64,000 nt of DNA from Tetrahymena thermophila SB210 (taxonomy: Eukaryota; Ciliophora; Oligohymenophorea; Hymenostomatida; Tetrahymenidae), in contig NW_002476086.1 in NCBI RefSeq assembly GCF_000189635.1, positions 248,001-312,000 on the forward strand, written 5' to 3'. Below are positions 17,739 to 61,047 of the stretch, in pieces (positions within the stretch are counted from its first letter, which is position 1; each line of letters opens with the position of its first letter). The position numbers and the translations under genes were made by a program. Under the pieces are notes generated by a model. It was not told the DNA's origin, did no database searches, and worked only from the letters and a program-made list of their open reading frames with translations.

Positions 17739-20700
17739 ATGACTTATTGTTTTAACTATTTTATTAATATAAAAGAAAATTATTCAACAGTACTAATTAA
17801 TTAAAATATTTCCTGCAACCCTTAAGGATGTACTAAATATAGTGTGACTGTTGATACATCCGTTTTTCTTGAGATTAACGATTCTATTAAATAATCTACT
17901 TATAGTATCAGTGAAACTACATGGAATTCTTTACCTTACTCATGGACAAGTGTTCCTATTTTATATGCCTTTGACTACTAAAAGTCAGGTCAATATACTT
18001 TGTATATCTTAGCAGATCAGACTAATTAGATGATTTTGATAAATATTAGAGACTAAGTAGATAATTAAATTTTTGTAGGGTAATTGCAAGGAATCACCAA
18101 CTTGAGTAACAGAGTTATCTCTTATAATACTAATGCATTATATGTAGTAGAAACAACTAAAAAAACAAATGCTTAGATTATTGCATTTTGCATCAATTCT
18201 ACTTTCAATAATACTCAGAAACTTTGTGTCAAAACGACTGATTCGTAAAAAAAAATATAAAATAAATTTTATATTTAATTATTGTTTATTTTATAGCAAT
18301 TGCTTATTCGAAAATAACTCTGTTTGCCTATTATGTAGCTCTACTACTTTTATAGATCCTATTTCAAAGTAATTTTGAGATTTTACAAGTATTTTTATAA
18401 TATAATCAATTTTTTTATTAGACTTTGTGTAAAATGTCCAGATACTTGTGTTGGTTGTACAAGTGCAAATATATGCACTTCATGCATATCAAATTATAGA
18501 GATCCAAACAACAGTTGCTAGTGCACAGGAGGTAGAGTTGAAAACCCAAGTGTTAGGCTTTTATTAGAATAAAAAAACCAACCAAGAAATCTTTAATTCT
18601 CAACATGTGTTTGCCCAAATTAAACATATGAAGATCCAAAAACTAAAAACTGCATTTCATGTTCTTCAATTTCAACTTTTTGCTTAAATTGTGATGCACA
18701 GGGCTGCAATAGTTGTAGTCAAGGAAGCTATTTATCAAATAAAACATGTATACCTTGTTAATAAAATTGTTTGTCATGTAGTCAAAGCTCATGCTCAAAT
18801 TGTTAATCAGGTTATTACATTAATAATACTTAGTAATGTAGCTCTTGTTCTTCACTTGTAACTAATTGCGTTTAATGTACTTCTTCAGGATGCTCTTAAT
18901 GTGCCTAAGGATATTATCTAAAAAATAAGTATTATTTTTTAATTAAATTAATATTTTTTAGGATATTAATAATATTTTATGTAAAGTCAATGCCTCTAAT
19001 GTTCACCTAACTGCTCAAATGGATGCTCAACTGAATTAATCTGCAATTCGTGCTATACTCCTTATAGAGATGTAAATAATAAATGTGCATGTATAGGAGG
19101 AACAACAGAATAACCAGGATCAATCCCAGGTTAAGGATAATGTGTATGCTAAAACAATTAATATTATGATACTACCAACAATATTTGCAAACTATGTAGC
19201 CAAAGTTTTGGATCTACTTGCACTTCATGCTTGTAAACTGGGTGCATTACATGTGACTCTTCAAGTGGAGGATAATACATAGATCCCAACTCTCATTCTT
19301 GTGTAGCTTGTGCAACTACATTTGGAGCTTAATGTCTATCTTGCAGTACTACCTAGTGCTCAACATGCAATATTGGATACTATTTAAATGCATAGTAAGT
19401 TAATTTTTATATTAATTGAAATATTTATTAAATTTTTTTCAATAGAAACCAATGTACGAACTGCAATTAAAATTGTTCTGGTGGGTGCTCAAGTGCCAAT
19501 AAATGCAACTCATGCTATACAAATTATAGAGACCCAAATAATTAATGCAACTGTATTGATGGTAGACATAGCGTTCCAGCATCAAATTAAAATTAACGTA
19601 TATTATAATCTACTCATTAAAGATTATTAGGTTAAACAGATTAATGTGTGTGTAATTCTGATAGAGTTGAACAGCCAAATGGCTAATGTCAATTGTGCTC
19701 TGCTCTATTTGGAAGTTAATGTACAAGCTGTAACTTATAGACTTGCTTAACTTGTATAAATGGTTCTTATGCAAATTAAAGTGGTATTTGTTAATGCCCA
19801 TCTGATTAGTATCTTGATGTAGGTTCATTAACTTGCTTATAATGCGCTACTCAATATTCTTAATACTGTAAGTCCTGTAGTAGTACTACATGTCTTGACT
19901 GTGGGGACCCAAATTCTTAATATATACCAACTACAAAAGCATGCTAGTGTATTTAAGGATATTTTGTATCTTCTCGAGTCAATAACTCCTTTACTTGCTA
20001 ATAATGTTCATAAAAGTATGGTAGCAATTGTACAGTTTGCAATGAAACTATTTGCTAGAATTGCTAGAATGGCTATATATACAATCCTACCTCTTAACAA
20101 TGTGAATGTCCTGTTGGATATGCTGTTAAAGATAATATTTGCAAGCCATGTTCATAATTATACAATAAATATTGCTCTTAATGTGACAATAATCAATGTA
20201 ACTTATGTTCTTAATTAGATAGAAATCCATTAACAGGCTGCTCTTGCAGCTAGAGCTAAGCTGCAGACTTAAATGGGTAGTGTTATTACTGTTCTATAAA
20301 TCTATCTACCCAAACGCCTGTTGCTCTAGCTACTATAATAAATGCTAATATTGTTTGTAATTTTAACACAGGGAACGATGGAGAAGAGTCAAACAAAATT
20401 CAAGGATAAATTTCAATATATTTAGCTCTTTCTTATAATTTTGTTAATTCATATGGAGTAATTTAAAAAAATACTAAACAATACCTTTTATCTAATACTT
20501 ACAGCATCTAAAATTTGGTTTTACCTCATGGAAATCATTAAATTATTAGCAATTTTACTTCAACAGGAAGTTAAGCTTTTACTTAAATATCAACAATTTC
20601 TGTTAGTGTCAGCTCTGTCTATAACAATATGCAATAGCTTTACATTAACTACTTCTCATTTAAGAGCCTTTCTTCTAAGCTAGATTTGACTCAGCTCGTT

Positions 20701-22821
20701 AAATATCTTGTAGAAATACTAGAAGTAAAAATGGTTTAAAGTGATAATATCTCTATTTAATAAAAAAGCTGCTCCTCAATTTCATAAAATGGTTCTATTT
20801 GTGTCTGCAGCTCTTCTTCCTCTTATTTTGCAGACTGTTCTGGCTCTAACTAATAATATTCTTAATTTTAGTAAATCATGCTGTAATACTCCAGCTTTTT
20901 AAACAATAACGGAGTTAATCTTACAAAGCTATAGCAGATTTAATTTAATTACCTACTCCCACTTGTGAATGAATAGATTGATTCTACTTTTATTAGCAAA
21001 GACTCAACTTAAGTTGATAGCCTAGTTAGCACAATATAGCAATAATCTAATTAATTCAATGATATTACTAATCTTCCTTAAAATTTCAGCTAACAAGCAA
21101 GCCAGGTAACTTAATAAATTTCTGGATTACTTGATTCTCCTTCAATAAGCTAGGAAAACACTCAAAAAGCTATGAAAGTAGTCACTTAAATTTAGCAAGC
21201 TAGTTTATAAACAATAAATCCCTACTATAAGTAAGTTAATAAACCAGAACCTGTTCCACAAATAATCACCAATAACTTACTTTTGGATTAAAAGCTTATA
21301 AAATGTTCATCAGCTAACTTCACTGCTTAGAATATTTAATACATAATAGGAGATCCTTTTAGTGGGTCTTAGAATAATAGATTTTTAGGGGTTAATGAGC
21401 AAGCCTTTGACCAACCTACTCTTTAGATTAGAATTTTAGACTCTTCTTAATGCTAAGCAATTACTGCAGGTTCTGAAGCAGATAAAAACTACCATTACAA
21501 TGGTGTCAGTGCTTCAATTTATAAAAGCAACCCTTACTAAAATTTATATGAGTTACCTTATTAAGAGTAAAGATATCAGTTTTTTTCAACATAATTAAAA
21601 TACTTTGATCCTTCATAGCAGAGAATCTTAGATAGTTCAACATAAGAAAGTAACCCTTAACTTTATTCTTTGCAATTTAAAGTTGTTAATACTAATCCAT
21701 AAGACAGCTCTACTAAATTTAACAATACGCTCTTCAAATGTATTTACTTTAACTAAACTGCAGAATCTTCTATGAAATGGAGTTAGTGTCCTTAAAGTTA
21801 TTTCTTAGCTCAATCCAGAATCTTAGGATGCAGTTGCCCTACTCAATCTACCTATGTATACGATTACGACAACATATTTACAGATGATTCAACCCATGAC
21901 TTAATAGAAGAAGCTAAAAAGAAATAGACTACTCTAATTATTATTGCTATCATATTAGCTGCTGTTTTTATTATTTTAATAATACTCTATGCTTTTATCT
22001 ATAAACCCAAGCATATTATTTATGAACTTGCATAACTCGGAAAGCAATAAGAGTTACAAGATTCAAATTAAGTAAAAATTAATGAAAAGCTCTAGACTGC
22101 GAAGGTTAAAGATAATGTTAATGATGAAACTAAAAAATTCAACAATATTATATCCGCCTAAAGCACTCCGATGAACCAATTAGCTATCACTCAAGCATTA
22201 CAATAGTTAAAAAATAAAAATAATTACTCTCCAAATAATATCTAAAATTAATAAGCAAATAATTTTTCTATAAATAGTAATAACATAAATAATATAAACA
22301 ATGTTCAATATAGTTCAGCAAAATTCAATCAAAACTTAAAGTTTGATACTTTTGGTAACAATTCAAGCTTTTAATAAAATAAAAAAATGGGAGCTTCGTT
22401 CTAAGATAACTAAGAAGCCTTGAATTCTAATAATCGTTCCATTTAATTAAATCCTTCAATTTTTAATAATATAAGCAAATTTAATGTTTAACATAATAAC
22501 TTAACAGATATTCCTCTCCCTTCTGTTAATGAAAGAAAAGAGTATTTGCAGACATTTGAAAATAATTACACTGAAAGAAATCCATAAGAGCATTAAAGTT
22601 CTGATAAAAGATTAGAAGAAATTCAAACCCACAATTACTTAAAAACTAATGCAAATACAAACAGAGATATTTAATCTAATGCTAAGCTTTAACTTTCAAA
22701 TTCTGAAGAAAATATAGAAGTTGGTAGTAAAATTCAATTCACAAGCTAAAGTTTGAGTAAATAGCCTAGTAATCAAGGATAAAAAAAAGATATCAAGGTC
22801 TAAGAGGATAATAAGGTTTGA
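17739..22821 (+). CDS. Large cysteine-cassette, GPS-like single-pass surface protein
   Basis: Exons are 17739-18244, 18297-18368, 18422-18928, 18987-19394 and 19446-22821, with all phases matching, giving 1622 aa from the ATG at 17739. The upstream exons at 16004-16752 may replace this N-terminus and supply the signal peptide. Residues about 1-190 are beta-rich. Residues about 193-870 form furin/growth-factor-receptor-type cassettes full of CxxC pairs, with a repeated NYRDPNN-C-C unit near the start of exons 3, 4 and 5. Around residues 1270-1315 a CIYF...W..CP...GCSC block resembles a GPS motif just before the membrane. One transmembrane helix (TLIIIAIILAAVFIILIILY) lies near 1328-1350. The cytosolic tail of about 270 residues is Asn/Gln-rich. 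Likely role: a plasma-membrane receptor or adhesion protein. Ligand unknown. Confidence 0.85.
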
Positions 22822-23770: not shown

Positions 23771-26428
23771 TCAGAGTTTAGGAGTTGGATTTTTAGTAGT
23801 ATTCTTTTTCTTAAGGAGGCCATAGTTTTCAACATCTGATTATATTTTAGGAATTACAGATGCATCATCAATTGTAGGAGGAATTTTTTCTATTTTTTCT
23901 CCATCTACAATTTTTTTAAGAGTTTGTCTTAAGATCTTGCCGCTTCTTGTCTTTGGTAGCTTATCTACTAAAATACAATTGTTGAAAGAAGCAACAGGGC
24001 CTAATATTATAAGAGAATAAAATTTTTAAATTAGTTTAAGATTTAAATTTGAATGTAATTTATATTTATCTTTTAAGCTTGTATTAAAAATGTTAAAAGT
24101 TTGTTAAATTAGAATTATCAAGCTAATTGAAATAATTTAAATTTTAAAAAAATAAATACCTATCTCTTTTCTAACTATAGCTACACATTCTTTTTCGAAT
24201 TCTTTTAAGTTAATGTTTCCACCTTATTTAGCAACCACAAAACCAATAGGAATTTCACCTTTGAAATCATCAACTTATGCAACAACGGCAGCTTCAACGA
24301 TGTTTGGGTGTTTAAGGAGGGCTTCTTCCATAGCTGCAGTAGATAGTCTATGACCAGCAGTGTTTATGATATCATCTATTCTAGCCATAACATTCAAATA
24401 TCCTGTTTCATCAAAGTAACCACTATCACCAGCTAAATAATATCCAGGTGAGTCTGATAAATACTTTTGAATAAAGGCTTCATCGTTGTTATATAAAGTA
24501 AGCATGAATGAAGGAGGCATAGGGAGTTTAATACAGATTCTTCCAAGCTTATTTGGTTCAGTGATTTCCTTGTTATCTTAGTCTAAGATACGAACATCAA
24601 AGCCAGGGGCAGGTTTAATAGCAGAACCAGGTTTAACTGGATGAGTGTATAGATTCTTTAAATTAATTAAAACTTAAGTAAGTTATAAAAATATATATTA
24701 AATACCTTGTAATTGCATGAAATAATCCAACCAGTTTCAGTTTGCCAATAGTTATCATTGATTAAAACAGGAACATGCTTTTGAATCCATTCATATGTAG
24801 GTACATCACATCTTTCACCAGCCATAGAAATGGATTATAAAGAAGATATATCAAATTTTTTAATCCAATCACCATTCAAATCATCCCTAAAAGTTAATTT
24901 TAAAAATAAGTAAATCAATATTTTTTTAAATATTAGATTAATTGATTTATCTAAATGAACGTATTTTTAGAAAGCTTAGCAATTGGGTAATAAAATTTTT
25001 TATATGTCAATCAATGCAATTTCTAAAATAAAAATGAATTACTTTCTTATGGCTCTAAGAGCAGTTGGAGCTGTATAAAGACCCTTTACTCTATATTTTT
25101 CAATAATTCTCCAGAATTAGCCTGGATCAGGAGTACCAGTTGGCTTACCTTCATACAAAATAGTTGTAGCACCTATTTTTATTATTTATTAAAAAGATTA
25201 ATTTATATTTTCAAAAGAATTCTTTATTTGTTGAATCTAATAAAATTTTGATCACAAAAAATAATAATATTTGATAAGAATCTTTTATCAAGATTTATTG
25301 TAAACAAAATATTTAATTAATCTTTTTATTAATTTTCAATAAAATGCTTTTTATTAGAAATTTAGAAGATTATTTATTATTTTATTGCTTCCTTTAATGA
25401 ATATGGCATGTAAAATTAAAAAATTTTATATATTCTCTTTAAACATTCATAAATTCTATTTTATTTCTTCCTCCTAAAATCTAAACTTTGGTTTTATTTT
25501 ATTTACCTCTGATAAGGGGTCCATAAACTATGAAATGATGTCCAACAACCCAACCAATATCGCTACCAGAAAAGTAGACATCTCCTTTATGGATATCCAT
25601 GATATGTTACATAGTCCAAGATGTAGCAACGCAGGTACCTGCTGTATCTCTCACTATACCCTTGGGTTATCCAGTAGTTCCTGAAGTATAAAGAATATAT
25701 AAAGGGTGATCACCTTCAACAGGTACACAGTCAACTCTTTCAGCAAACAACATGGAGGAGTGGTAATCAAAATCTCTACCAACTTTAACAGGAGCTGTCA
25801 TTTTATCACCTCTTTACAAAAGTAAGACCTTAATACCTTATACCTAAGATAAATCAATAGCTTCATCCAAAATTTGTTTGTAGTTAATCACTTTACCAGG
25901 CTCAAAACCATAAGATGCACCTAAAATTAAAGTAGGCTTTGAGTCTTAAATACGGCCTGATAATTCTTTAGCAGCAAAACCTCCGAAGACAACTGAGTGA
26001 ATGGCACCTATTCTAGCACAGGCAAGCATACCAAATACAGCTTCAGGGACCATTGGCATGTAAATTACTACTCTATCACCCTTCTTAACACCTAATTTTC
26101 TATAAACACCAGCAAGTCTTGAGACATTATCAAGTAGCTCAGCCCATGTGTATGATTTTTCTGTGCCTAAATATCCGCATACATACTAAATAGCTGTTTT
26201 ATTTGCAAGTTCTCCAACATGACGATCGATAGCGTTGTAGCACATGTTGACTCTACTGTCCTTAAACCAACGCCAGAAGCCAGGATTTGGGTGGGATTTA
26301 TCTAAAATAACATCAGGCTTCTTGTACCAATCAACTTAATAGGTCTGTTCTTTCCAAAATTCTTCACGAGTTTAATCATTTGTAGCTCTATCAAAAGCTA
26401 TTTAGTAAGCATTGTTAGGACGACTCAT
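23771..26428 (-). CDS. Short-chain acyl-CoA synthetase, ACSS3/propionyl-CoA synthetase type
   Basis: Minus-strand exons are 26428-25507, 25172-25043, 24886-24706, 24655-24160 and 24000-23771, giving 652 aa. The enzyme activates acetate or propionate with ATP and CoA through an acyl-AMP intermediate. Visible motifs are the phosphate-binding loop [14 protein letters not shown] near residue 250, YWQTETGW in the adenylate-binding region, the hinge region [13 protein letters not shown], and the catalytic lysine in RSGKILR (about K598). [12 protein letters not shown] near the N-terminus and [13 protein letters not shown] match the ACSS3/PrpE branch better than classical acetyl-CoA synthetase. No mitochondrial presequence is evident. 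The C-terminus is PKL, a PTS1-like tripeptide, so peroxisomal location is possible. Codon use is less AT-biased than its neighbours, as expected for a well-expressed gene. Substrate choice between acetate and propionate is inference. Confidence 0.95.
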
Positions 26429-29035
26429 ACTTTTAGTTACAGAAGATTATTTTTAAATTTTTGAATAAAATGGTTATAAAAACTTACTTTTACTAGGCTT
26501 TGGTGTACTTTTTTTATATATTAATTTGTTTTGCTGTTTTGTATATTAAAGATTTATTTTTTATCTTTGTTGTTTAATATTATTAATAATATAATATTTT
26601 TAATATTGGTAGAGCAAGAAAGTATTTATAAAGAGCAGTAATATGTAATAAGCTTTTTGTTTTGAAGTGTAAAATACACACTTAAAAAATTAAATACAAA
26701 AATCAATAAAACACTATTTTTTGAAATAATATGGGCTGTACTCTAAATTAAAGAATTTTTCTAAATTCTTTAGAATTCTGAATAGTGACGTAAAAAATAT
26801 CTTAACTGAAGAAGAATAAACCTTCATTAACAATTAAGTAATCATAATTGAATTAAATCTGTCACAATAATAATATATCAGAATTAAACCTGTACATCAT
26901 TATCAAATTTTAAAAATCTAGAACAATACTTTAATTACATTTCTTCTATCATCTTCATAATGTTCTTCAAACATTTTTTTGTTTGCTGATTTATTAATAT
27001 TGCTTACAAAAATTAAAATTTATTTAGCAGCCTTCATATTTACCTGATTTATTTATTAACCGAGTATTTAAATTCAATAATTTGAGATTAACAACTTAAA
27101 AAATTAATTTATTACGAATTAATGTCAAATTGTTTATAAAATATGTAAAAATCCAATTAATTTTTGATATGTGCAAATCAATTTGCATCTTATCAGAAAT
27201 AATCCTTAAAATTGATTTTTTAATTTATTTATTTACTTTTCATGATTTAATTATTTTTATAGTATAGTCAATATTAACAATATCTCTAAAATAGGAACTT
27301 GATTTCTTTTTTAGAAAAATTAGTTTATAAAATATTTACTCAAAACTTAAAAATTAAATAATAAAAATTATTTTTATTGTAGTTTTGTTTTAATCTATGT
27401 TGCATCTTGAAGTTTTTAAATAGATATAAATTAAAATACTTATAGAAAATAACTTTTGAATCTTACTCGTAATCTTTGCATAAAAACTCCATATAAAATA
27501 AGTTAAAATATGTAAACAAAATGAAGAAATAAATAATTCATCATAGGTATAGTGCATGCTGGGATTTAGTATTTGGTTTTATGAGCAGAATTTAATCATC
27601 TTTTATAATTATACTCGAATAATTAAGAGTTTGACTTGAAAGTATCATAAAAATATCACAAAAAATTTATATACTCCGTCATCTTAAATTAAAATCGTGT
27701 AATTAAGATTTAATTTGAAAAGAATACATAAAACAAATTTTCATAAATAATATATATATTTTACTTTTAGGTTTTAATTTTTTTGTATACTATGTCTTTT
27801 TAAGTAAAAAGTTAGCATTCTTAAGGTAACATAGTTTGGTAAAGATTATTATATTAAGATAATAGTTAGATGTTATTTTTGATCAATTATTCCATGAGAT
27901 TAGGTAGAATATAGAAAAAACAATTTTGCATTGAGCTAATAAAAAAATTTAAAATAGATTTCAATAAAAATATATATTTCAACAATATTATCAATAATAA
28001 AAAGATTATATGTTAAATACATAGATAAATATGTAAACTAATGCTAATTTTTGCAATTAAAATATGTGGTTTTAGGTATTTTATACAGGAATGGCTCTCT
28101 CATAAAACATTACTTCGAGGATGAATAGATAGAAGCAAATCTTTACTTAACATTTCAAATCATCAGTAATTAAAAAATTTTTAATTAAAAGTTTGCATAA
28201 CTTAAATTATAGTGCTTAATAAAATTCATCAGTATTAAAAAAATAAATAACTTAATTTATAAGATAAATTAATAGCCTCTAAATAGCAAGTTAATATTCA
28301 AAAAATTAATAAATACAAAAAATAATTAAATCTATTTTTTGAAAGATAAAATATATACTGTCAATTTTTAGTAAGACAAAGCAATCACTCTTAAATAATA
28401 TTTTATCTCTTAAAACTAATTTATCAAATATACCAAAAAGAAATAAAAGTGTCAGAATTAAATTATAAAACAAAACAGGGAATACTATTCTAACCTAAAT
28501 CTTTTTTGTAATAAAATATTTAATAAATTTCTAATTAAATTTAAATATTTCTTTAACACTTGAAATATATATGCATATAAATATATTAAATTTAAAGTAA
28601 ATTTAAAAACAAATAGAAAATGAATAGATAATGCTTAAAAATAGTAAATGCTTCATAAGAGATTTGCATAAAATTTCACTAAAACAAATGATAAAAGAAA
28701 ATGAAAATAAAAAAAATTTTAAAGATATCTTAAATATTGAAAAAAATTATATATAGTCTATTTATTTTATTTATTTGATTATAATTTACTTACTTTTTAT
28801 ATAATAATTTTTGCTTTAATATTTTTTTTAAAAAGGATTGCTTTAAATATTGTTTATTTATTTTTTTATAAACCAAAGAAAAATATTTAAGATATATATA
28901 GGTGTTATTAAATTAAAAAAACACTTTATTTTTTTTGATGAAAATTTTTACTTAAATTTAATAAAAAATAGAGAACTTTCAGAAATTATTTAATTAAACA
29001 CAAAAATTTAATAAAATAAAAAGCTCTTTAAACCC
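26429..29035. other. Divergent promoter region and spacer
   Basis: This is the shared upstream region of the minus-strand synthetase and the plus-strand TPR gene. Between about 27791 and 28556 all three plus frames contain coding-like patches, none forming a convincing gene. A 44-codon minus-strand ORF at 26903-27037 is too short to support. Confidence 0.5.
27791..28556 (+). pseudogene. Patchwork of coding-like frames, possible decayed gene
   Basis: ATG at 27791 opens about 110 codons in one frame. A second frame carries MNRQKQIFTQHFKSSVIKK, and a third carries GILYRNGSLIKHYFEDEQ and stays open to about 28556. No arrangement of GT-AG introns I tried joins them. It could be a frameshifted relic or simply Asn/Gln-rich noise in a one-stop code. 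Confidence 0.15.
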
Positions 29036-44260: not shown

Positions 44261-45520
44261 ATGGGAAACTTAACAAACAAAAATATCTAAAAACTTAATA
44301 CTTAAAAACTGCTTACTAAATTTAAATCAGATTTAGAAAGAGAAAGAAAGGACTTAATCACTAAAGAATTTGAGGTTTTTGATTAGTTCTCTGGAATATG
44401 CTAATAAAACAATTTAGATTAAAACAATTTATCTCCAGGTGATATATATACTAATTAATGCATTTAGTAGTATCTGAAAACAAAAAATTTTAAAAATATT
44501 AAGTATGTGGATAAAGGGTGTTAAGCAAGGGTATTTTTTGGATATGATGATCGAAATATAATGTATGCATTCAAATGCTATGAAAGATAATCTAATTGTT
44601 AGCAAGCACAAGCAGAGATTAATGTACTTTAACAATTTCCAAATAAGAAACATGTAATAAAATTTATTAATAAATATGTTGATAACTAAGATTACATTAT
44701 CATTTAATTGCAAGCATGCTAAACTAGTCTTCAGCAAATAATTAATTAAAACTAATATTTTAGTGAAAATACAATCATCAAGCTTGCTTATGAAATATTT
44801 TTGGGAATTTGTAATATTCATAATGAAAATGTTATAATTTTTGATTTGAAACCTGAAAATATATTGATAGACTATTGCGGATAGGCTGTAGTAAGTGACT
44901 TTGGATTATCAAAGTAGCTATAATAAGATCTAAGCACTGCTTCTTAGTCTAATGGAAATTATTTATACAGAGCTCCAGAAGGAATTGATTAGAATAGATA
45001 ATTATTTGAAGAATAAGTTTAAGGTTTTGTATTTGAACCAAATAGACTTTCAAAAAAAGCAGATTTATTTTCATTTGCTTTAATACTTTATAGAATGTTA
45101 ACTGACTAAAAGACTCTATTTGAAAGATGTGCATATCAAAAATATAATATTGATATATCACTTTTAGATAGATAATTAAAATACAAAGATGAGTTTAAAT
45201 TAATTATTTAAGGATTAACCAAACTTGATCCAAAGAAAAGATTAGAGCATATAAAAGTTCTTTTAACTTTAGAATAAATGTACTTAAAAGAAATTTAATA
45301 AGATACATTTGGTCTTAGAAAAGAAAGCATCCCTACTAATTTTAGGTGTTAAGATATTTAATCTTTTGTTTCCAATGATAAAGACCATGTAATTCCAATT
45401 TACAATAAAAACCATCAATAAGAATAATAAAAATGTAATAATTGGTTGAAAAAAATTTAAGTATTTATTCTAACTTTTTTGGTATTATTTATTCAAATTT
45501 TATATTCACAAAATTTTTGA
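44261..45520 (+). CDS. Membrane-anchored protein kinase-like protein
   Basis: ATG at 44261 to TGA at 45518-45520 gives 419 aa, single exon. The kinase fold spans about residues 78-370. The ATP-binding lysine is in YAFKCYE (K105), the alpha-C glutamate is likely E119, the catalytic loop reads VIIFDLKPEN (D195, K197, N200), the metal site is SDFGLS (D213) and APE is at 238-240. HRD is replaced by IFD and the glycine loop is poor (YVDKGCQARVFFG), so the key Asp and Lys are present but activity is uncertain. The extreme N-terminus MGN fits an N-myristoylation signal (Gly2). A C-terminal helix (VFILTFLVLFIQILYS) would anchor the protein as a tail-anchored membrane protein. Substrates are unknown. 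Confidence 0.85.
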
Positions 45521-46725: not shown

Positions 46726-47694
46726 TCAAATGTAGTGTTCATCTTATGTTGTATCTGCAAGCACCTTAGTCTGAGAGTAGTCGCTTGCTAGATCATGATT
46801 TACATCTCTATGATGCTCTTCGTCTTTACGAATTGCATAAATTACATCTTCCATAGTTGCATTTTCAGGCAATCTCCAATAATCAATAGCAATTTAAGGA
46901 GCTTTCTTAGTTTTCCAATGACTAATTGAACTATTTTCTTAATTAATAACTTCAATACAGTGAGTATAGGTTTTTACAGCTTCTTCTTCTAGGTAACCAA
47001 CAATTCTGTGGCAAACTCTAGGGAAGAATTGATATAGTAATCCAAACATCAAAACATAATTAAATTAGGCAGAAATTACTCCTAATCTGAAAAGTAATGT
47101 TGGCTTTTATACTTTTAAGAATGTAAGTAAATGCATTCTTTCATTTTCAGCTTCTTCAAGTAAAACATGGATCCAACCATAATCACGTTCCATTCTTCTC
47201 AATGAACGTAAATGCCTATGCATAGCAGCAACAAATCCAGGTACTCCTGCGACAGTTTCTAAGAATACCATTCTGTTTAACCAACCTCTTTCAGTCAATT
47301 CGCCACTTTTTTACTACCATGGGAAGACCTTTTTGTAGCCACTCATGACATCAAAACCCAATCTCATACTTTGAATAAGATAATGAGATAATCTATCGCC
47401 AATATTTTTTGGCTTGAAATGAGTAATTTAAACATTTTCAACATCTTCTTTTGTCCATATAGGGTGTGGTAAGACATAAACACCTAGCTTTTCTTCAGTA
47501 GAAACTGCATTAGGCTAGAATTAAGTTTTGACTTCTTTTTACTTTTAAGATTAACTGATACTGTTAAAAGTATTCTAGAAAAAGTTATTCTCTGGGGTGT
47601 ATTGTAAATCTGATTTGAATCTTCTGGAAACAGAAAAAAGAGTATTAGTGTTCTTGTGAATTTATAAGCACTTTTTGAAAAGATTAGCTCTCAT
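46726..47694 (-). CDS. AOX: Alternative oxidase, copy 1
   Basis: A single minus-strand exon from ATG at 47694 to TGA at 46726 gives 322 aa. The enzyme is the mitochondrial inner-membrane ubiquinol oxidase that reduces oxygen to water without pumping protons, bypassing complexes III and IV. The di-iron ligand motifs are complete: LET (E146), NERMH (E185, H188), LEEEA (around 235-239) and DEEHH (around 291-295, normally DEAHH). Hydrophobic helices near 145-158 and 203-225 would sit in the membrane leaflet. The N-terminus [19 protein letters not shown] is basic and Ser/Thr-containing, fitting a mitochondrial presequence. The next gene upstream on the same strand, 2.3 kb away, is a paralogue. The coding strand carries a 14/15 match to the Tetrahymena chromosome breakage sequence at 47277-47291, within conserved codons. 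Confidence 0.96.
47277..47291 (+). other. Near match to the chromosome breakage sequence
   Basis: TTAACCAACCTCTTT differs only at position 2 from the 15-bp Tetrahymena Cbs (TAAACCAACCTCTTT, from memory). It lies inside conserved alternative oxidase codons (ERGWLN), and an active Cbs would have been removed from macronuclear DNA, so it is probably coincidental or inactive. Confidence 0.3.
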
Positions 47695-50003: not shown

Positions 50004-50909
50004 TCAATGACCAGGAGGGAAAGGATTGGGCTTCTTTTGTGAGTAGTCATCTGCTAACTTGTGGTTTACATCTCTGTGATGCTCTTCATCTTTTCTTACT
50101 GCATAAATTACATCAAGGAGGCATGCATTTGGTGATAACTTCCAATAATCTATTGATATTTTTGGTGCTGGTTTGGTTAACCAAATATGTATTTCAGATC
50201 CCTCTTTTAAAGCAGTTTCAATACTATGAGTGTAGGTCTTTACTGCCTCTTCTTCTAGATACCCAACAATTCTATGGCACACTCTAGGGTAGAAGAAGTA
50301 AAGAACCGAAAATAAGGCAACATATCCGTATTAGGCTAGAATAACACCAGTTCTAAATAGAAAAGTAGGTTTTTATACTTCTAAGAATGTTAGCAAATGC
50401 ATTCTCTCATTTTCAGCCTCTTCTAAAAGAGTATGAATCCAACCATAATCACGTTTCATAGATCTCAATGAACGTAAGTGTCTGTGCATGGCAGCAACGA
50501 ATCCAGGAACACCAGCTACAGTTTCTAAGAAAAGAATTCTGTTAATCCATTCTCTTTCAGTCAAAGGAGCACCCTTCTCTTACCAAGGGAATACCTTTTT
50601 GTAACCACTCATAATATCAAATCCATATCTTAAAGACTAGATGAAAAAGTTTGCAAAACGATCTCCAAAATTAGCAGGTTCCAAGTGAGTTATAGCAACA
50701 TCCTTTACTTCTTATTCAGTCCATACTGGATGAGGCATAGTCCACTAACCATTTTTAAGTATTTATTCCTTTTTTTCAAGTTCTTATTTCTTTTGTTCAG
50801 GAGTCATTTAAAAGCCACCAAACTTGTAGTTTGGAATAGCTGAGAATAGAGATTTCTGATGGGCGAAATTTCTAAAAATATTGGCACTTCTTTTAGTTAA
50901 GAAATTCAT
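50004..50909 (-). CDS. AOX: Alternative oxidase, copy 2
   Basis: A single minus-strand exon from ATG at 50909 to TGA at 50004 gives 301 aa. All di-iron motifs are present: LET (E129), NERMH (E168, H171), LEEEA (218-222) and DEEHH (274-278). The central about 170 residues are nearly identical to copy 1 (for example [15 protein letters not shown] and [18 protein letters not shown]). The N-terminal about 60 residues and the C-terminus (PNPFPPGH) differ, so the copies have diverged mainly in targeting and regulatory ends. The N-terminus [20 protein letters not shown] suits mitochondrial import. Head-to-tail order with copy 1 indicates tandem duplication. The two copies may be expressed under different conditions, which the sequence cannot show. 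Confidence 0.96.
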
Positions 50910-53900
50910 TGTTAGTCTTAATTTGTATACTAATTGCTAGTTTGTTTATTTTTAATTGTTTAAATTTCGTTTTCTAAATTTATTAATAGATATTTATTTT
51001 TTTTAATTATTATATTATTGCTATTATTTTGAAACCCAAACATTTAAAGCTGATTTCAATTAGAAATAAAAATATTAAATATATAATTTATGTTCAGTAT
51101 TTTATTGCGTATTTGCTGATGAAGATTCTTTTTGTTTATTTATAAATAAATTTTTTTGCAAATTTTATTTTGTTATATTTTTTACTTACGTTTAAATTGT
51201 TTTTGAAAAATAAAAATTGCTAGATAACACATTCAATTAAGCATGAATCTAAAAAATTTGATATGAAATATTTAACAATATATTCGAAATTTTATGTAGA
51301 GATATTGTTTCAGTAAGGTTCATGACTACTTTCGCATATAAATATGAGTTTAATTTAGTTTTAAGTAGAAGATTATATAATTTCTTGAAAATTTCTTTTG
51401 AGAGTTAATCAAAATTAATTTATTATTTCTGATGACGACCCAAAGTTTTTCTCGAATTTTTCTAAGAAAAAATAAGTTAATTTGTACTATCTAAAAATAG
51501 CGCCTTATTACAAATCCTTCTACTTAATAGAAAAAACTTATCTAAGTTAGTCAATAAACGATTAAAGTATAATCTTTGTGAAAAATAATTTCATTTCTTA
51601 AGATTTAAAAACATATTTATAATATTTTTGTATTAGTTTTTTGTAAATGCATATGAAATTTCTGGAAAGTTAAGATCATTTAATTGTGGCTTAATAATTT
51701 CTCAGTTACTCTAATTAGATTATGCATAAATGGAACCTTACAAACTAAAATTTAATGATAGGCTATTTTAAATAAAAATTTCATATTACTTTTGTTTTTT
51801 ATTTAAATAAAAAATGGCATATTTAAAAAATAAATAATTATTTTAAAAGAATGATAAGCTTTTACAAAATTATTTTTTATAATTGATTGGAATAGGTAAT
51901 TGTACAATGATTTATTTAAGAAATAGTATAAGAAAAGTAAATAATTTTTAAATTTGTTAAAAGCTTATCCTTCAAGCATTATAAATAATAAAAATGAAAG
52001 CTATAATAGAAAAATAAAATGTAAATATGTTTTTTATATTTGGATTAGAGATATATACAAATACCATTCAAATTAGACACTAATTTTTATAAAGAACTAT
52101 AAACTATATATATAAATAACATCTTAATTATATTAATTACCATTTAGAGGTTAGAATAAAATTAATTTTTAAATATTTTGAGCTAGAAGAATGTCTATAT
52201 CTTATTGTATTAATTATTAATATCATATTCATGAATAGGTAAATATCCTGAATTTGCATTAATTTTGTTAACTCTTTTTACAGATAGTAGAAAAAAATTA
52301 AATTTAAGCTAGTTCAGTTCTAATACAATCTGGTTTATTTTTTTATTTCCCCAAAAGCATATTTTTAATTAAAACAAGTAATAAAGCAAAAATAACTCTT
52401 AATTTTTAATATTACACTTATAAGGAAACACATTTTTTAAGATAGAAAAAATAAAAAAAATAAATTTTTTTAATTTTATTCCTTTTTATTAAAAAATTAG
52501 TGATTTTAAAAAATACAGGAAAATTTATAAAAAATCAGCTAAATAGAGAAAGCATAAGCATATAAAAATATTTAATCATAAAGGTTCGACATAAACATTT
52601 TAAATTAAAAAATGTTTCCAGAAAATTTAAAATAAAAACAAATTATTCTAAATTATTATTTAACGAACCGAAATTATTTCATTTAAAGAAATAAAATAGA
52701 TAAAATAGTTAGCCAGCAGGTTCTAAATAACTTTAACTAAAATTAAATAAAGAGAGCAACTTAATTTTTACAAATTTTTATCTGTAATATACGAGTGAGC
52801 TAACACTATATATATTTCAATAATTCTTTTTAAGAAAAAATTTAAACATAATGCGCCATAAATTAATATTAATATTTTTTAGTTTATGAAATAAATAAGT
52901 AAAATAGTTTGTTTAATAATAGATATAAAAATTATCCAATTATAAAATATAAAAAATTAGATATTTCAAAAAGTATTCAGACATAAATTTTTAAAGTTTC
53001 TGATTCAAGTAATTATTTTTAGTTGAAAAATTTATAAAATTTAGATACAAAATAGTTTTTAATTTTTGTAAAATATTCAAAAATTAAGATATTTGATTAA
53101 ATCATTATAGCTTCTTTAAATTTAATAAATTATGAAACTAAACTAAAAAAAATAATTTACATTTATAATTTGCTAAAATTTCAATTTTCATTACAAATTA
53201 AATAATTTATATTTATTTGCATTTTGGAAATAAAAATTAAAGTTTAAAGTATATTAGTATAATTAAAACATAAGAAAGGTAATATCAACATAAGAGTTTC
53301 AATTATACAAACTTGATATTTTTAAAGCACTAAATATAAAATTTATCTAATATTTAAATACATTTGCAAATTTAGCACACCAGATAATGTTTATATTTTT
53401 ATGTTATTAGAAGTAGTCATATCAAAACATAAAAAAAGTAAATATTTAAATATTAGGTGATTTAATATAGATTTAATTAAGCTTATTAAATTCCTAAAGA
53501 ACTCATCTCAATAATACATAATATAAACTTATAAATATGATAGTATTTCTATTTAAATTTTTTGCTTGCTGTATAAATATTTTTAATACTATATTTTACT
53601 ACAATTTCATTTCATTATCAGCATTTCATTTTTATTAATTCAATTCAAACATACCATACTATAAACATCACTTTAATTAACAGATTAAAATAATTTTTCA
53701 GTTATAAATTGAATAGTCTAATTTTTATTTTTTTAGTTTGTTTTTTTATTCATTTTTCTCTTCAAATTTTACTGTGATACACATATTTAATTTTATAAAT
53801 ATTCCATCTAATTTGTCATTAATTACTTTTATTTATTTTTTCAACATTGAAAATAGTTTTAATTCATTTTTATAGTATATTTTTTATTTGTAATTTAATA

Positions 53901-56184: not shown

Positions 56185-57827
56185 GCAAAAAGTTTGAATA
56201 TGTTGTTTAATTTTTACAAAAGTAATAGAAAAAATAATGGAAATAAATGGCATTCATATTAAATGATAGTTAATGATTTTAAAGTTACATATTTTGATAT
56301 ATAATTTAAGCATTTCTACACTTTTAATTAGTAGATATTTACAAATTGTTAATTTTTTAATTATAAACACAAGTTATTATTTAAATATATTAATTTATTT
56401 ATAATTTAAAAGTTATATATTTAAAAAAATAGAATGAAAAAATACAGAAATATAACATTGGCATATTTATTTTGTTTTTGTGTAAGTTTAAAATACTTTT
56501 CAAAAAAATTAAAAAATTGATACTTTGTATTTTGAAAAAATAAACATGGGTTATTTTAAATTTTATCGATTTCAGACTGAGTGGTAAAAGATATACTGTT
56601 CATTAATTCTGGATAAAAGACAAGAGATAAAAGACAGTTTAAAAAATAAAAGGCGTTGAAGAAATACTTAGTTTTTTTAACTTTGGAGAGTAGAAAAATA
56701 TTTGATTTTGATTAATTAACTTTCGAATAGATTGAATAAAGGAAATATATCTACTTGATTTTTAAAACTGTTAAACTACTCAACCAAAAAAAAATTAAAA
56801 AATAATAAAGATTCCTCAAAAAAATGAAGCGCTTATGGTGAGAAATTAAATTTTTATAAATAATTAAAATAAAACCATTTAATAGATTAAAATAAAAAAA
56901 ATATTTAAGTTGGTTAGGTTGATAATAAAGGTTAGTAATATATATCAGAATCATAATAAATATATTTGTAAGATTTTGAATGATAAAGATTAATGGATAT
57001 TATCTCAGTTTGATATAATATAAATTATTGGTAAAATAAAGCTTAATAGATATTTGTAATTATATATCATTTGATTGGATTGTAATAAAAACCATAAATT
57101 AAACATTGAAAATATGATTGAAAATAATATGCATTCACTAAATTGAGCAATTATTTCCCAATCAAAATTTTCATTCGAATTAGTTATGCTCTGAAAATCG
57201 CCAATCACTTAAATTTATTATTTAATAATATCCAAAAAACATTCTGCTTTTACTAATCTTACCTCTTCAATAATAATTAATCTTACTCTTACACCTATCA
57301 ATTATTTATTATCTTTATTAACTTATTTTGCATGCTTTTATCTCAATCTTAACAAAAACCTAAAAAATATTAATTTGCATAAATAGAAAAAAAAATAGGC
57401 AAATAATTTATATTCCAACTTCAATTAAAAAGGTATAAAGAAAGATCATATAATAAGAATATAAAAAACTCGTTTCAACTACTACTTTTTTACCAGTTCC
57501 AATACTAAACCAACTCAAAAAAATACTAATTTCTTTGAATTATTAAAGCGGAAGCATTCAACAACTCAAATATAATATATTAATTACTAAATCAGTTCCT
57601 AAATTTTAAGTTTGACCACATTTTTATTTTTTTAAAGCTTCAAACTTAGTAGTTAGTTATTTAATAAAATTAAGTAAAATAAATAAGTATCCTAGATTTT
57701 AGAAAGATCAAATTCGCACTTAAATATAGCTAAAGTATTAACATCAAAAAAAGGCATATTGTATTTAAATTGATTCAAAGATAGCACCCTTAAAAAATAT
57801 ATTATTTAGAGTTAATATAATAATCAA
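56185..57827. other. AT-rich spacer
   Basis: No gene is supported. Standard-code minus-strand ORFs at 56751-56954 and 57005-57208 are Ile/Leu/Phe/Asn-rich and look random. The last 50 bp is A-rich leader for the next gene. Confidence 0.5.
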
Positions 57828-60800
57828 ATGGCGCAAATAATTACCATATCAAATAGGTACTAATATCATTCTGATGGATGTTTATATGAGTAAGGAAATA
57901 TGAAAATCTTTTTAGGCAATGATACTCAATTAAAATAAGATGTTACCATTAAAGTACTTGAATTTGGAGCTAGCAGTCTAGGTAATGTAGATGTTAGAGC
58001 CTAAATAGCAAATTACAGACTTCTTAAGGGTAGTACATGTGAAAATATTATGGAAATTAAGGAAATTATAGAATCTGATTCAAAAGCATTTATAATAGGA
58101 GAATGGTGTGAAAGAGGTTCACTTAAACCTTATATAAAAAATGGTTTTTTGGATGAGAAAGATGCTTTACTCATTTTCAAGTAAATAGTTAATGGATTGA
58201 AGGAGTATCATGATAAAGGTATTACTCATGGTTTTGTTTAGTTAAATAATATTCTTGTGGCTAATGGTTATTTCAAATTGAGTAATTTTGCTGAAGGTAA
58301 TGAAGACCGTTATCTTGCTCCAGAAGTCAGTTCTCCAGATAAAAAAACTAAAAAATCAGATATTTGGTCACTTGGTATTCTTTTATTCTTGCTTTTAAAA
58401 GGAGATTTCCCTTTCTAAAGTGGATAAGATATCTTAGGTGCTATCAAAAGCTTAAAGTTTGTCTTCGATGAAAAGTCTAGTAATTAAGAATCTTTTGTTT
58501 TCCCTGTTACGATTTCTAAGCGTTGTCAGTAATTCATAAGTCGTATGCTCTCTGTCAACCCCAGTGAACGTCCAAGCTTACAAGATTTACTTCGTAACTC
58601 TATTTTAGACTCAGTAAAAATAACTTATACAGCTAGCTAAAGATAGACTACCTCTCAGCGTATTTTGACTGATAGATATATGCCTAAATACACAATATTT
58701 TTAGAATCAGCTGAAAAGAATGACATAAATGGTCTTCTCGAAAACGAAATTGTCTATTTTGGTCTATGCTAAGAGGCGAAGATGTTCGTTAAAATTAAGT
58801 AAATGACTTTAAACGAGGAAAGGTCCAAATATTATTTACCTAAACTTAATGCCTTTGCTCAAATTAATAACCCTGGTTGTGTTAAAGTTTATGATCTTGG
58901 GTAAAATTAGAAAGGAAATTCTCTGATACTTTTTGAGGAATATGCAAATTAAGGTAGCTTAAATGATTTTCTAATGAAGCGTAAAGCTGCTAATCTTACA
59001 CGTTCAGAGTAGGAAGGAGAATTAGCTATGCGTCGTTTACTATAAACAATGACAATTATTTAAAAATAAATAGGTTATCATGGTTCAATTCATATTAAAA
59101 ATGTATTTGTCCACAATGGAAATTTAAAAATAGGAGAACCTCTAAATCTCTCTTAAAATGCAGAGGTATTACTAAGCCAATAGCACTAATAAATGGATTT
59201 CTTTGCACCTGAGTATAAAAGAGATTTAGTAGAATAAGACCCAAATGCCAAACTAGATAAAGCAGATGTATGGTCATACGGTATGCTCTATTACACAATT
59301 CTTTATGGAGACTTGCAGTTTGACTAATTTAAAAACCCTAAATTCCCTGACTAAGCCTCAAGAAAAAATTAATACGCAATTCAATAGTGTTTATAAGGTG
59401 ATTTAAATGCTCGTAGTGATTGGTAACAAGTTTAGTAGAACTTAGATTTGGATGAGAATAATGTCCCTCGCTATAAATAAGTTGTAGTTTAAAGATAAGA
59501 ACCTCCACCATTATAATAATACATCCCTGTTAGAGCTCCTACTCCTTAGATTACAAGAGAAATGACTCCTATACAACCTGCTTACATTATTAGACCTTAA
59601 ACTCCTGTAAATTTTGACATTCCTCATGAAGAAGATCCTGAATTGCACCTTATTCCAGTTAAACCTACTGGTGGAGAAAGACTAAGAAAAGTTAAGTAGT
59701 TTGTCAAAGCAATATTTTGTATTACTCTGCTCTTAACAGTGTAAGTTATTTATTTTCTTTAAAAATAATTTTTTAAATCAAATAAAAACACAAACAACAT
59801 CGCTTAAATGGATTTATTAAATATTTTTGTTTATCTTTTAAAATTTTACATAATAAAAGATATATAAATTAATAACATTAAATAAAATTAGATTCTTTAG
59901 ATTAGCATTAGTTAATTGTTGGGATATGATTGGTAGCAGATATAATATGAAGAGACTCGATTTTAGTATACTAAATCCAAAAAATACTAACGAATTATTA
60001 AATCTATCAATTATCACAGATAATCCAAATTATTACAAATATGGAACAAACCCATCAGCGTAGCTTACTTAAGGTTAGTGCCTAAATAATTTCTTTGATC
60101 CAGACTGGCCAAATTATTAACTGATTGATTATATTCATTCTGCAGGCTTTTTTTGTTGGGCTTTTTTCTGTTTTATAACTATGATTTTTACTTGTATTTT
60201 TAAAGCTATACATATGGCTAAATTAGATCAATATACAGTTTATATTAATTGGTAGACAAATTTACTAGCTCCTTATAACAAGTATTTAATGGCATGCTAA
60301 GTTTGGTCTCATTTTGATTTCGCTTTCCTCTATTATGTCCATTACCATCTATTTAGTTTCTTTTACTATACATAAACTAGCCCCTGCTTGGGAGTAACTA
60401 TGAATTAAGGAGTATAAATGTTATTTGATTCAACCATTTACTTATTTAAAGGCTAAAATACTAATTATTTAACTAATTATTTATTTACTTTGGGTTTGTT
60501 TGGTTATATTATTTGCATAGGACTCTTTTTCTATATTCGCCACCCAATAAAAACGTCTGGAATTTTCACAAACTACATTTATCTAGGATTTAGAATCGTA
60601 ACCTATATAATTATCATTTTAGTTTGTCGTTTTGGTGCTCTTGCTCCTTTTTAACCTTAAGTCTTTAATGATCCTCATAGTATAATCTCTTCAGCTTTCT
60701 CTAATGGTGAATTTATGGCAGTTATTGGATTTATTCCAGAAATAATGGAAATATTTTTGATCCTACTTGATCTACTTATAGAAGGTGTATTCTATTTTAT

Positions 60801-61047
60801 TGGTTAAAATAATCCTGAAACTGAACCTTATGATAACTAACATTTACCTTATAGATTCTAAAATGACTAATCGTAATTAATGGCTGATAACACTCCTTAC
60901 AAATATGATAATGTTGCCAATAATAGCTTACTTCCTTCTGTAAGAAACTCTGAATTTTAAAAAAGACCACCTTTGACTGAAAAAAATATGAATAATGTGT
61001 TTACAAATGGTTTACCAAAGCGTCGTGCTGACTAGCATGTTATTTGA
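57828..61047 (+). CDS. Tandem pseudokinase domains fused to a C-terminal membrane bundle
   Basis: Exon 1 is 57828-59740, the intron is 59741-59891 and exon 2 is 59892-61047, giving 1022 aa. Residues about 15-265 form one kinase-like domain: TIKVLEFG (K42), GITHGFVQLNN where HRDxxxxN should be, LSNFAEG for DFG, then a normal APE (164-166) and DIWSLGILLF. Residues about 285-520 form a second: MFVKIKQM, GYHGSIHIKNVFV, LKIGEPLN for DFG, FFAPEYK and DVWSYGMLYY. Both lack the catalytic Asp and the metal Asp, so both look inactive. A Pro-rich linker (about 545-615) leads to about six membrane helices between 625 and 920, starting with KAIFCITLLLTVFF and ending with EIFLILLDLLIEGVFYFIG. The soluble C-terminus is about 90 residues. 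It is probably a membrane signalling scaffold with cytosolic pseudokinases. Function unknown. Confidence 0.85.

Follow-up and report, generated by a model that had tools for sequence, protein, structure and literature searches.

Tandem kinase folds without catalytic aspartates joined to a predicted multi-helix membrane domain in two genes of Tetrahymena thermophila

The stretch of DNA analysed here (the window) comprises 64,000 nucleotides of Tetrahymena thermophila SB210 (contig NW_002476086.1, positions 248,001 to 312,000 of the forward strand), and we describe the single gene at 57828-61047 (+), which, read with TAA and TAG as glutamine, gives a product of 1,019 residues in the spliced model. 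This product carries two kinase folds in a row, both without the aspartates of the HRD and DFG motifs, followed by a proline-rich linker and by a membrane domain of five to six predicted transmembrane helices (TM). The genome holds a second gene built alike, which shows that the domain combination is real and maintained by selection.

The window's own genome (101,022,631 bases in 445 contigs) was searched with parts of the gene. In agreement with T. thermophila as the source, a telomerase stretch of 104 residues encoded in this genome matches the telomerase chain 2r4g of that species in the PDB at 101/102 aligned residues, the one difference lying at the outermost edge of the match. Exon 2 as query recovered itself and one other locus, on the minus strand of contig C341 (E = 1.9e-56), and the same locus was recovered at E = 4.3e-35 by kinase 2 with the linker; further down the 28 matches of that search stood ordinary kinases, none better than 2.1e-8. 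The paralogue, contained in a 10-kb region (L019), encodes 1,307 residues with the domain order of the window gene. Identity between the two products is 34% in kinase 1 (84/246), 36% in kinase 2 (92/254) and 41% in the membrane domain (139/339), the highest of the three conserved blocks, with 13/60 identical residues in the linker and 11/47 in the tail. The order of the three conserved blocks is the same in the two genes, which argues strongly for a single gene. Differences between the paralogues at codon positions 1, 2 and 3 amount to 0.545, 0.362 and 0.622 in kinase 1, to 0.472, 0.358 and 0.567 in kinase 2, and to 0.487, 0.357 and 0.596 in the membrane domain, a pattern of protein-level constraint to be read qualitatively, the copies being far apart. 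Neither paralogue, used as query, brought up a third copy of the membrane domain in this genome at E values up to 10; note that the search scores only the top first-pass candidates, so that a remote third copy could be missed.

The gene model joins two overlapping long frames, 57828-60098 and, in another frame, 59626-61047 (open reading frame listing, NCBI table 6). A sequence-only reading of this DNA had placed the gene correctly at both ends, with the start ATG at 57828 and the stop TGA at 61045-61047; the nearest upstream in-frame TGA lies at 57771, with no further in-frame ATG before 57828. Absent from that reading was the intron of 160 bases (Table 1), which opens with a GTAAGT donor, ends with the acceptor TTCTTTAG and has an A+T content of 87%, compared to 69% and 71% for the exons. 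It was picked among 25 frame-keeping GT-AG pairs in the scanned range as the one combining the best donor with a donor codon common to the paralogue: the exon/intron junction reads AACAGT/GTAAGT in the window gene and GACAGT/GTAATT in the paralogue, preceded in both by the homologous residues LTV and in equal phase. For the acceptor the placement is less secure and may be off by a few residues. Note that the ciliate code has one stop codon and that long frames alone therefore carry little weight; it is thus the paralogue that bears the main proof of the gene.

Both kinase folds of the window protein match the Pfam family PF00069 (Pkinase) above its curated cut-off of 31.7 bits (Table 1), and with those of the paralogue (3.3e-28, 99.3 bits; 1e-11, 45.2 bits) all four domains of the two proteins pass it. 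Catalytic sites were read from an alignment with three active kinases of the same genome. In the order window kinases 1 and 2, paralogue kinases 1 and 2, the HRD site reads HGF, HGS, HGA and HGA, and the DFG site reads NFA, EPL, CLS and EPL, i.e. both aspartates are missing in 4/4 domains, while the beta3 lysine and the catalytic-loop asparagine are present in every one. No glycine-rich loop could be recognised in this alignment for any of the domains. Other marks of the fold persist, with D[IV]W[SA]xG in all four and APE in three of them, both window domains included, the fourth having SPE. The two pseudokinase domains proposed by the sequence-only reading, with APE and DxWSxG retained, are therefore borne out. 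By a published definition, a pseudokinase is without at least one of the beta3 lysine, the HRD aspartate and the DFG aspartate (PMC4718504), and the sequences of these folds fall within that definition. With both aspartates gone, conventional phosphotransfer by the kinase pair is very unlikely.

The nearest kinases of this genome do not have this loss. At 21 other kinase loci, corresponding to 19 distinct places (two were fetched twice) and chosen from the top of two match lists, 28 and 89 long, HRDxxxxN is present in 21/21 and D[FLY]G in 20/21; set against these, the missing aspartates of all four domains argue that the loss is specific and predates the split of the paralogues. In kinase 2, the remnant HG[SA]xH[IM]KN...KIGEPL is nearly unchanged across the paralogues despite an identity of 36% for the domain as a whole. 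This conservation of a dead site beyond its surroundings argues that the fold itself is used.

As to the origin of the two folds, MARK structures are the first match in the PDB for window kinase 1 and kinase 2 alike, and KSR is among the PDB profile matches listed for kinase 2 (E = 1.9e-6). Beyond the paralogue, kinase 1 has its nearest relatives among active kinases of this genome, at E = 3.6e-20 and weaker (89 matches listed), and one of these, on contig C122, has MELK, ULK3 and AMPK as its best PDB matches (ULK/CAMK-like). A likeness of the kinase 2 dead site to NRBP/WNK-type kinases is a speculative lead; WNK is not among the 60 PDB matches listed. Between first and second pseudokinases the likeness is 26%, in alignments of at most 194 residues and with a best E of 3e-10. 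An 18-row tree, built from the four pseudokinase domains and from 14 active loci out of the 21 (two of these 14 being identical), all from this genome and without reference kinases, separates the first pseudokinases, the second pseudokinases and the active kinases into three groups; being unrooted, it does not settle whether the first and second folds are sisters arising from an internal duplication.

The linker that follows is 19% proline in the window protein, whereas that of the paralogue extends over 296 residues with 17% asparagine. Between residues 601 and 945 of the window protein we found five segments with a mean hydropathy of at least 1.6, a number matched by 8/2000 shuffles, and TM3 is a likely sixth helix: its two-sequence average is 0.81-0.90, and the paralogue reaches 1.70 slightly further on. 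The motifs GFIPExMEI, SPCLGVT and CRxG are conserved within or beside the helices. Queried with exon 2, i.e. without the first part of TM1, the membrane domain gave chance-level matches only in Pfam (QCR10, E = 0.35 and 0.42) and, as a single sequence, in the PDB (a light-harvesting chain, E = 0.56); a two-sequence profile had no match in the PDB, nor had the domain any in NCBIfam, whose models are for bacteria and archaea. An assignment of the helix bundle to a known membrane family was therefore set aside, and no relative was confirmed in viral contigs (600 pattern matches) or prokaryote contigs (98). Overall, the Pro-rich linker, the "about six" helices (a fair count, with five clear and one weak by hydropathy) and the unfamiliar membrane part of the sequence-only reading all stand.

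Charge and cysteines give indications on the topology. In the window protein, lysine plus arginine amount to 5/23 before TM1, 3/27 between TM2 and TM3 and 3/19 between TM4 and TM5, the putative inner stretches, and to 5/77, 1/36 and 0/20 in the putative outer loops TM1-TM2, TM3-TM4 and TM5-TM6; the corresponding values for the paralogue are 3/16, 4/27 and 2/16 inside versus 3/81, 2/41 and 0/22 outside. This denser distribution of basic residues in the inner stretches suggests that both ends of the protein would be cytosolic. Six cysteines are common to the two proteins: 233 and 521 belong to the kinases, and 698, 770, 800 and 880 to the membrane part. The TM1-TM2 loop of each protein carries an N-glycosylation sequon (N672 in the window protein, N974 in the paralogue, which has extra sequons at 1119 and 1209). 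From charge and cysteines we infer that the loop of 77 residues following TM1, and likewise the one following TM3, probably face the lumen or the outside, where Cys698 and Cys800 could perhaps form a disulfide joining the two outer loops.

We propose, with middling confidence, a multi-pass membrane protein in which both cytosolic kinase folds, very probably incapable of ordinary phosphotransfer, serve as a platform for docking or allosteric control. As charge and cysteines indicate, the N-terminal half and the tail would lie in the cytosol; the kinase pair would bind a partner, which may be an active serine/threonine kinase, and recruit or allosterically control it, as other pseudokinases do; and the helix bundle would either fix the pair to one membrane or link it to a ligand or state that is sensed at that membrane. 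For the mechanism, i.e. partner binding and sensing, we infer by analogy with STRAD, MLKL, KSR and Tribbles. A further proposal, doubtful and offered as speculation, is a new class of membrane signalling proteins in which a helix-bundle fold not described before, seen in this genome only with a tandem pseudokinase, would perceive a signal across the membrane by way of disulfide-linked outer loops and thereby reshape both kinase folds. Several points weigh against the platform reading. The beta3 lysine and catalytic-loop asparagine kept throughout leave room for nucleotide binding or unusual catalysis; the helix bundle, as the best conserved block, could be the working part itself; and the stretch before TM1 of the window protein has 5 acidic residues along with its 5 basic ones. 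The helices, moreover, were assigned by hydropathy alone: the five hydropathic segments of the paralogue are reached by 135/2000 shuffles of its membrane part, and a flat sum on an insertion-energy scale favours only 3 of the 11 assigned helices (TM2 and TM4 of the window protein, TM2 of the paralogue).

The chief rival turns the roles around: the helix bundle would do the work, as a channel, transporter or membrane enzyme of a kind not yet described, and the pseudokinase pair would be its gate or regulator on the cytosolic side, perhaps sensing nucleotide. We regard it as less likely: the membrane domain is better conserved (41%) than the kinase folds (34 and 36%), the three conserved motifs lie within or beside its helices, and the lysine and asparagine are kept in all four folds, but neither Pfam, NCBIfam nor the PDB holds a convincing channel or transporter match by sequence, and no pore or substrate motif was recognised. 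It is improbable that the pair is an active kinase with non-canonical chemistry, like the atypical WNK and CASK; the same lysine and asparagine, and a glutamate at the DFG-aspartate position in kinase 2 of both paralogues, would fit such an enzyme, but the HRD aspartate has given way to Phe, Ser, Ala and Ala and no domain has a recognisable glycine-rich loop.

The two remaining explanations concern the gene itself, and we give either very little credence. Two genes, one for a soluble double pseudokinase and one for a membrane protein, could have been wrongly joined, since the reading frames differ and the exon 1 frame stays open as far as 60098; yet the frame switch falls within the 87% A+T GT-AG stretch, splicing restores the membrane helix within which the split falls, and the paralogue has both blocks in equal order with donor codon and phase matching. 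It is the paralogue, at 34-41% identity and with its donor codon inside TM1, on which the two-gene reading was set aside; two separate genes would have undone the architecture drawn by the sequence-only reading. Loss of catalytic residues would equally be expected from the decaying pseudogene of an ordinary kinase, but 1,019 codons are open after splicing, fold and intron are maintained, and between paralogues at 34-41% identity codon position 2 is the most conserved and position 3 the least, a constraint on which this explanation was dropped. What stands of the earlier interpretation is one gene, a double pseudokinase, about six helices and no named membrane family; the ciliate-specific regulation of signalling or transport that it also put forward is conceivable.

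Table 1. Features of the window gene and location of its paralogue (window positions unless a contig, C341 or C363, or the region L019 is named).
Feature	Coordinates	Strand	Basis
Exon 1, with the start codon, both pseudokinases, the Pro-rich linker and the beginning of TM1	57828..59740	+	table 6 open reading frame, spliced model, paralogue match
Pseudokinase 1, residues 31-258, profile 19-261/263	57918..58601	+	PF00069, E=2.5e-34, 119.3 bits
Beta3 lysine K42, kept	57951..57953	+	alignment with active kinases
Catalytic loop 1, HGFVQLNN: HRD-Asp replaced by Phe136, Asn141 kept	58227..58250	+	alignment
DFG site 1, NFA, residues 153-155: Asp replaced by Asn153	58284..58292	+	alignment
Pseudokinase 2, profile 15-221/263	58752..59396	+	PF00069, E=9.9e-15, 55.1 bits
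Beta3 lysine K324, kept	58797..58799	+	alignment with active kinases
Catalytic loop 2, HGSIHIKN: HRD-Asp replaced by Ser420, Asn425 kept	59079..59102	+	alignment
DFG site 2, EPL, residues 437-439, in KIGEPL (identical in paralogue)	59136..59144	+	alignment
Linker, residues 541-618, 19% proline	59448..59681	+	composition
TM1, residues 624-642, split by intron	59697..59913	+	hydropathy 2.29
Intron, 160 bases, GTAAGTTA...GATTCTTTAG, inside TM1	59741..59900	+	GT-AG; paralogue donor at homologous codon and phase
Exon 2: remainder of TM1, TM2-TM6, tail, TGA	59901..61047	+	spliced model; paralogue match
Cys698, TM1-TM2 loop, conserved	60079..60081	+	paralogue comparison
TM2, residues 720-738	60145..60201	+	hydropathy 2.19; paralogue 2.78
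TM3, likely, residues about 766-795, limits uncertain, Tyr/Phe/His-rich	60283..60372	+	hydropathy below threshold
Cys800, TM3-TM4 loop (SPCLGVT), conserved	60385..60387	+	paralogue comparison
TM4, residues 832-850	60481..60537	+	hydropathy 2.23
TM5, residues 870-888	60595..60651	+	hydropathy 2.19; paralogue 1.45
TM6, residues about 909-931; carries GFIPExMEI, a motif conserved in paralogue	60712..60780	+	hydropathy 2.2-2.3
Window gene in contig terms	C363:305828-309047
Paralogue	C341:7841-11945; ATG L019:6445 to stop just below L019:2344	minus	genome search

The window gene lies ~3.8 kb from the end of its contig, C363 (312,867 bases), which terminates in GGGGTT repeats, and C341 starts with CCCCAA repeats ~7.8 kb past the 3' end of the paralogue. 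Both paralogues are near a macronuclear telomere and each is transcribed towards it, an orientation from which they might be germline neighbours across a chromosome-breakage site. Beside the paralogue, on the minus strand of L019 (reverse-complement 5-2588), lie frames that we take to resemble methylthioribose-1-phosphate isomerase and methylthioribose kinase, perhaps as one fused gene.

Elsewhere in the window, two alternative oxidase genes stand in tandem at 46726-47694 (-) and 50004-51323 (-) (Pfam AOX, 3.7e-95 and 1.2e-91). A kinase gene at 44261-45520 (+) (Pkinase, 3.2e-34) reads IFD at its HRD site, with the aspartate and the DFG kept, and has a hydrophobic C-terminal stretch that, by eye, may be a membrane anchor. 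An acetyl-CoA synthetase-like gene at 25211-26845 and 23771-24718 (-) is apparently split over at least two exons, its first piece identified by AMP-binding (6.8e-43) and ACAS_N (9.5e-14) and its second by eye. By eye, a Cys-rich repeat protein runs through several overlapping frames at 17739-22821 (+) and has a hydrophobic stretch towards its end; its first piece has no Pfam match.

KSR and Tribbles are pseudokinases with scaffold or allosteric roles. The window protein resembles STRAD, KSR, MLKL and Tribbles in having a kinase fold without catalytic residues; none of these is known to join two such folds in tandem to a multi-pass membrane domain. STRAD, with LKB1, and MLKL are pseudokinases that act without catalysis, and human MLKL reads HGK at its HRD site (PMC4718504), HG also opening the sites of the window protein; a review calls Tribbles a binding platform. 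The ULK/CAMK-like kinases of the genome are the nearest relatives of kinase 1 outside the paralogue, but the 21 examined keep HRD, and outside the two paralogues the membrane domain was not found.

JAKs and wheat tandem kinases likewise have two successive kinase folds. One of the two kinase domains of a JAK is active; a Janus-type tandem kinase was rejected here, neither window domain having the HRD or DFG aspartate and a helix bundle following them. TRPM6 and TRPM7 combine a multi-pass membrane domain and a C-terminal alpha-kinase in one chain, and the window protein shares with them the pairing of a kinase fold with such a domain, but its folds are N-terminal and of the PF00069 type; a channel-kinase of this kind was set aside on that difference from an alpha-kinase and on the lack of any ion-channel match in Pfam. 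A single-pass receptor kinase does not fit N-terminal kinase folds with five to six predicted helices after them, and a G-protein-coupled receptor was discarded, at the sequence level, for want of a 7tm match in Pfam and for the same helix count. The wheat tandem kinase-pseudokinases are reported to keep one active or putative kinase (PMC6997164). Alveolate guanylyl cyclase-P4-ATPase fusions are likewise reported to join a signalling domain to a multi-pass membrane domain (PMC6592433, PMC7858053), and were excluded as a model with no cyclase or P-type ATPase match in Pfam for the window protein.

Among the open-access PMC titles and openings of abstracts listed, none describes this architecture, which is no proof of absence. 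For the Ichthyophthirius genome, 38 kinase-domain genes are reported that could not be placed reliably in a known kinase family and are called likely pseudokinases (PMC3341644); unassigned ciliate pseudokinases are known in bulk, and the window gene is a concrete, testable case from this known yet unexplored pool. T. thermophila being genetically tractable, a two-gene family with tandem pseudokinases on an orphan membrane domain would allow the role of non-catalytic kinase folds at a membrane to be tested cleanly, and a new membrane fold may emerge from it. Compared with the systems above, and judged by its sequence, the architecture is a new arrangement of a known kind of protein, the pseudokinase.

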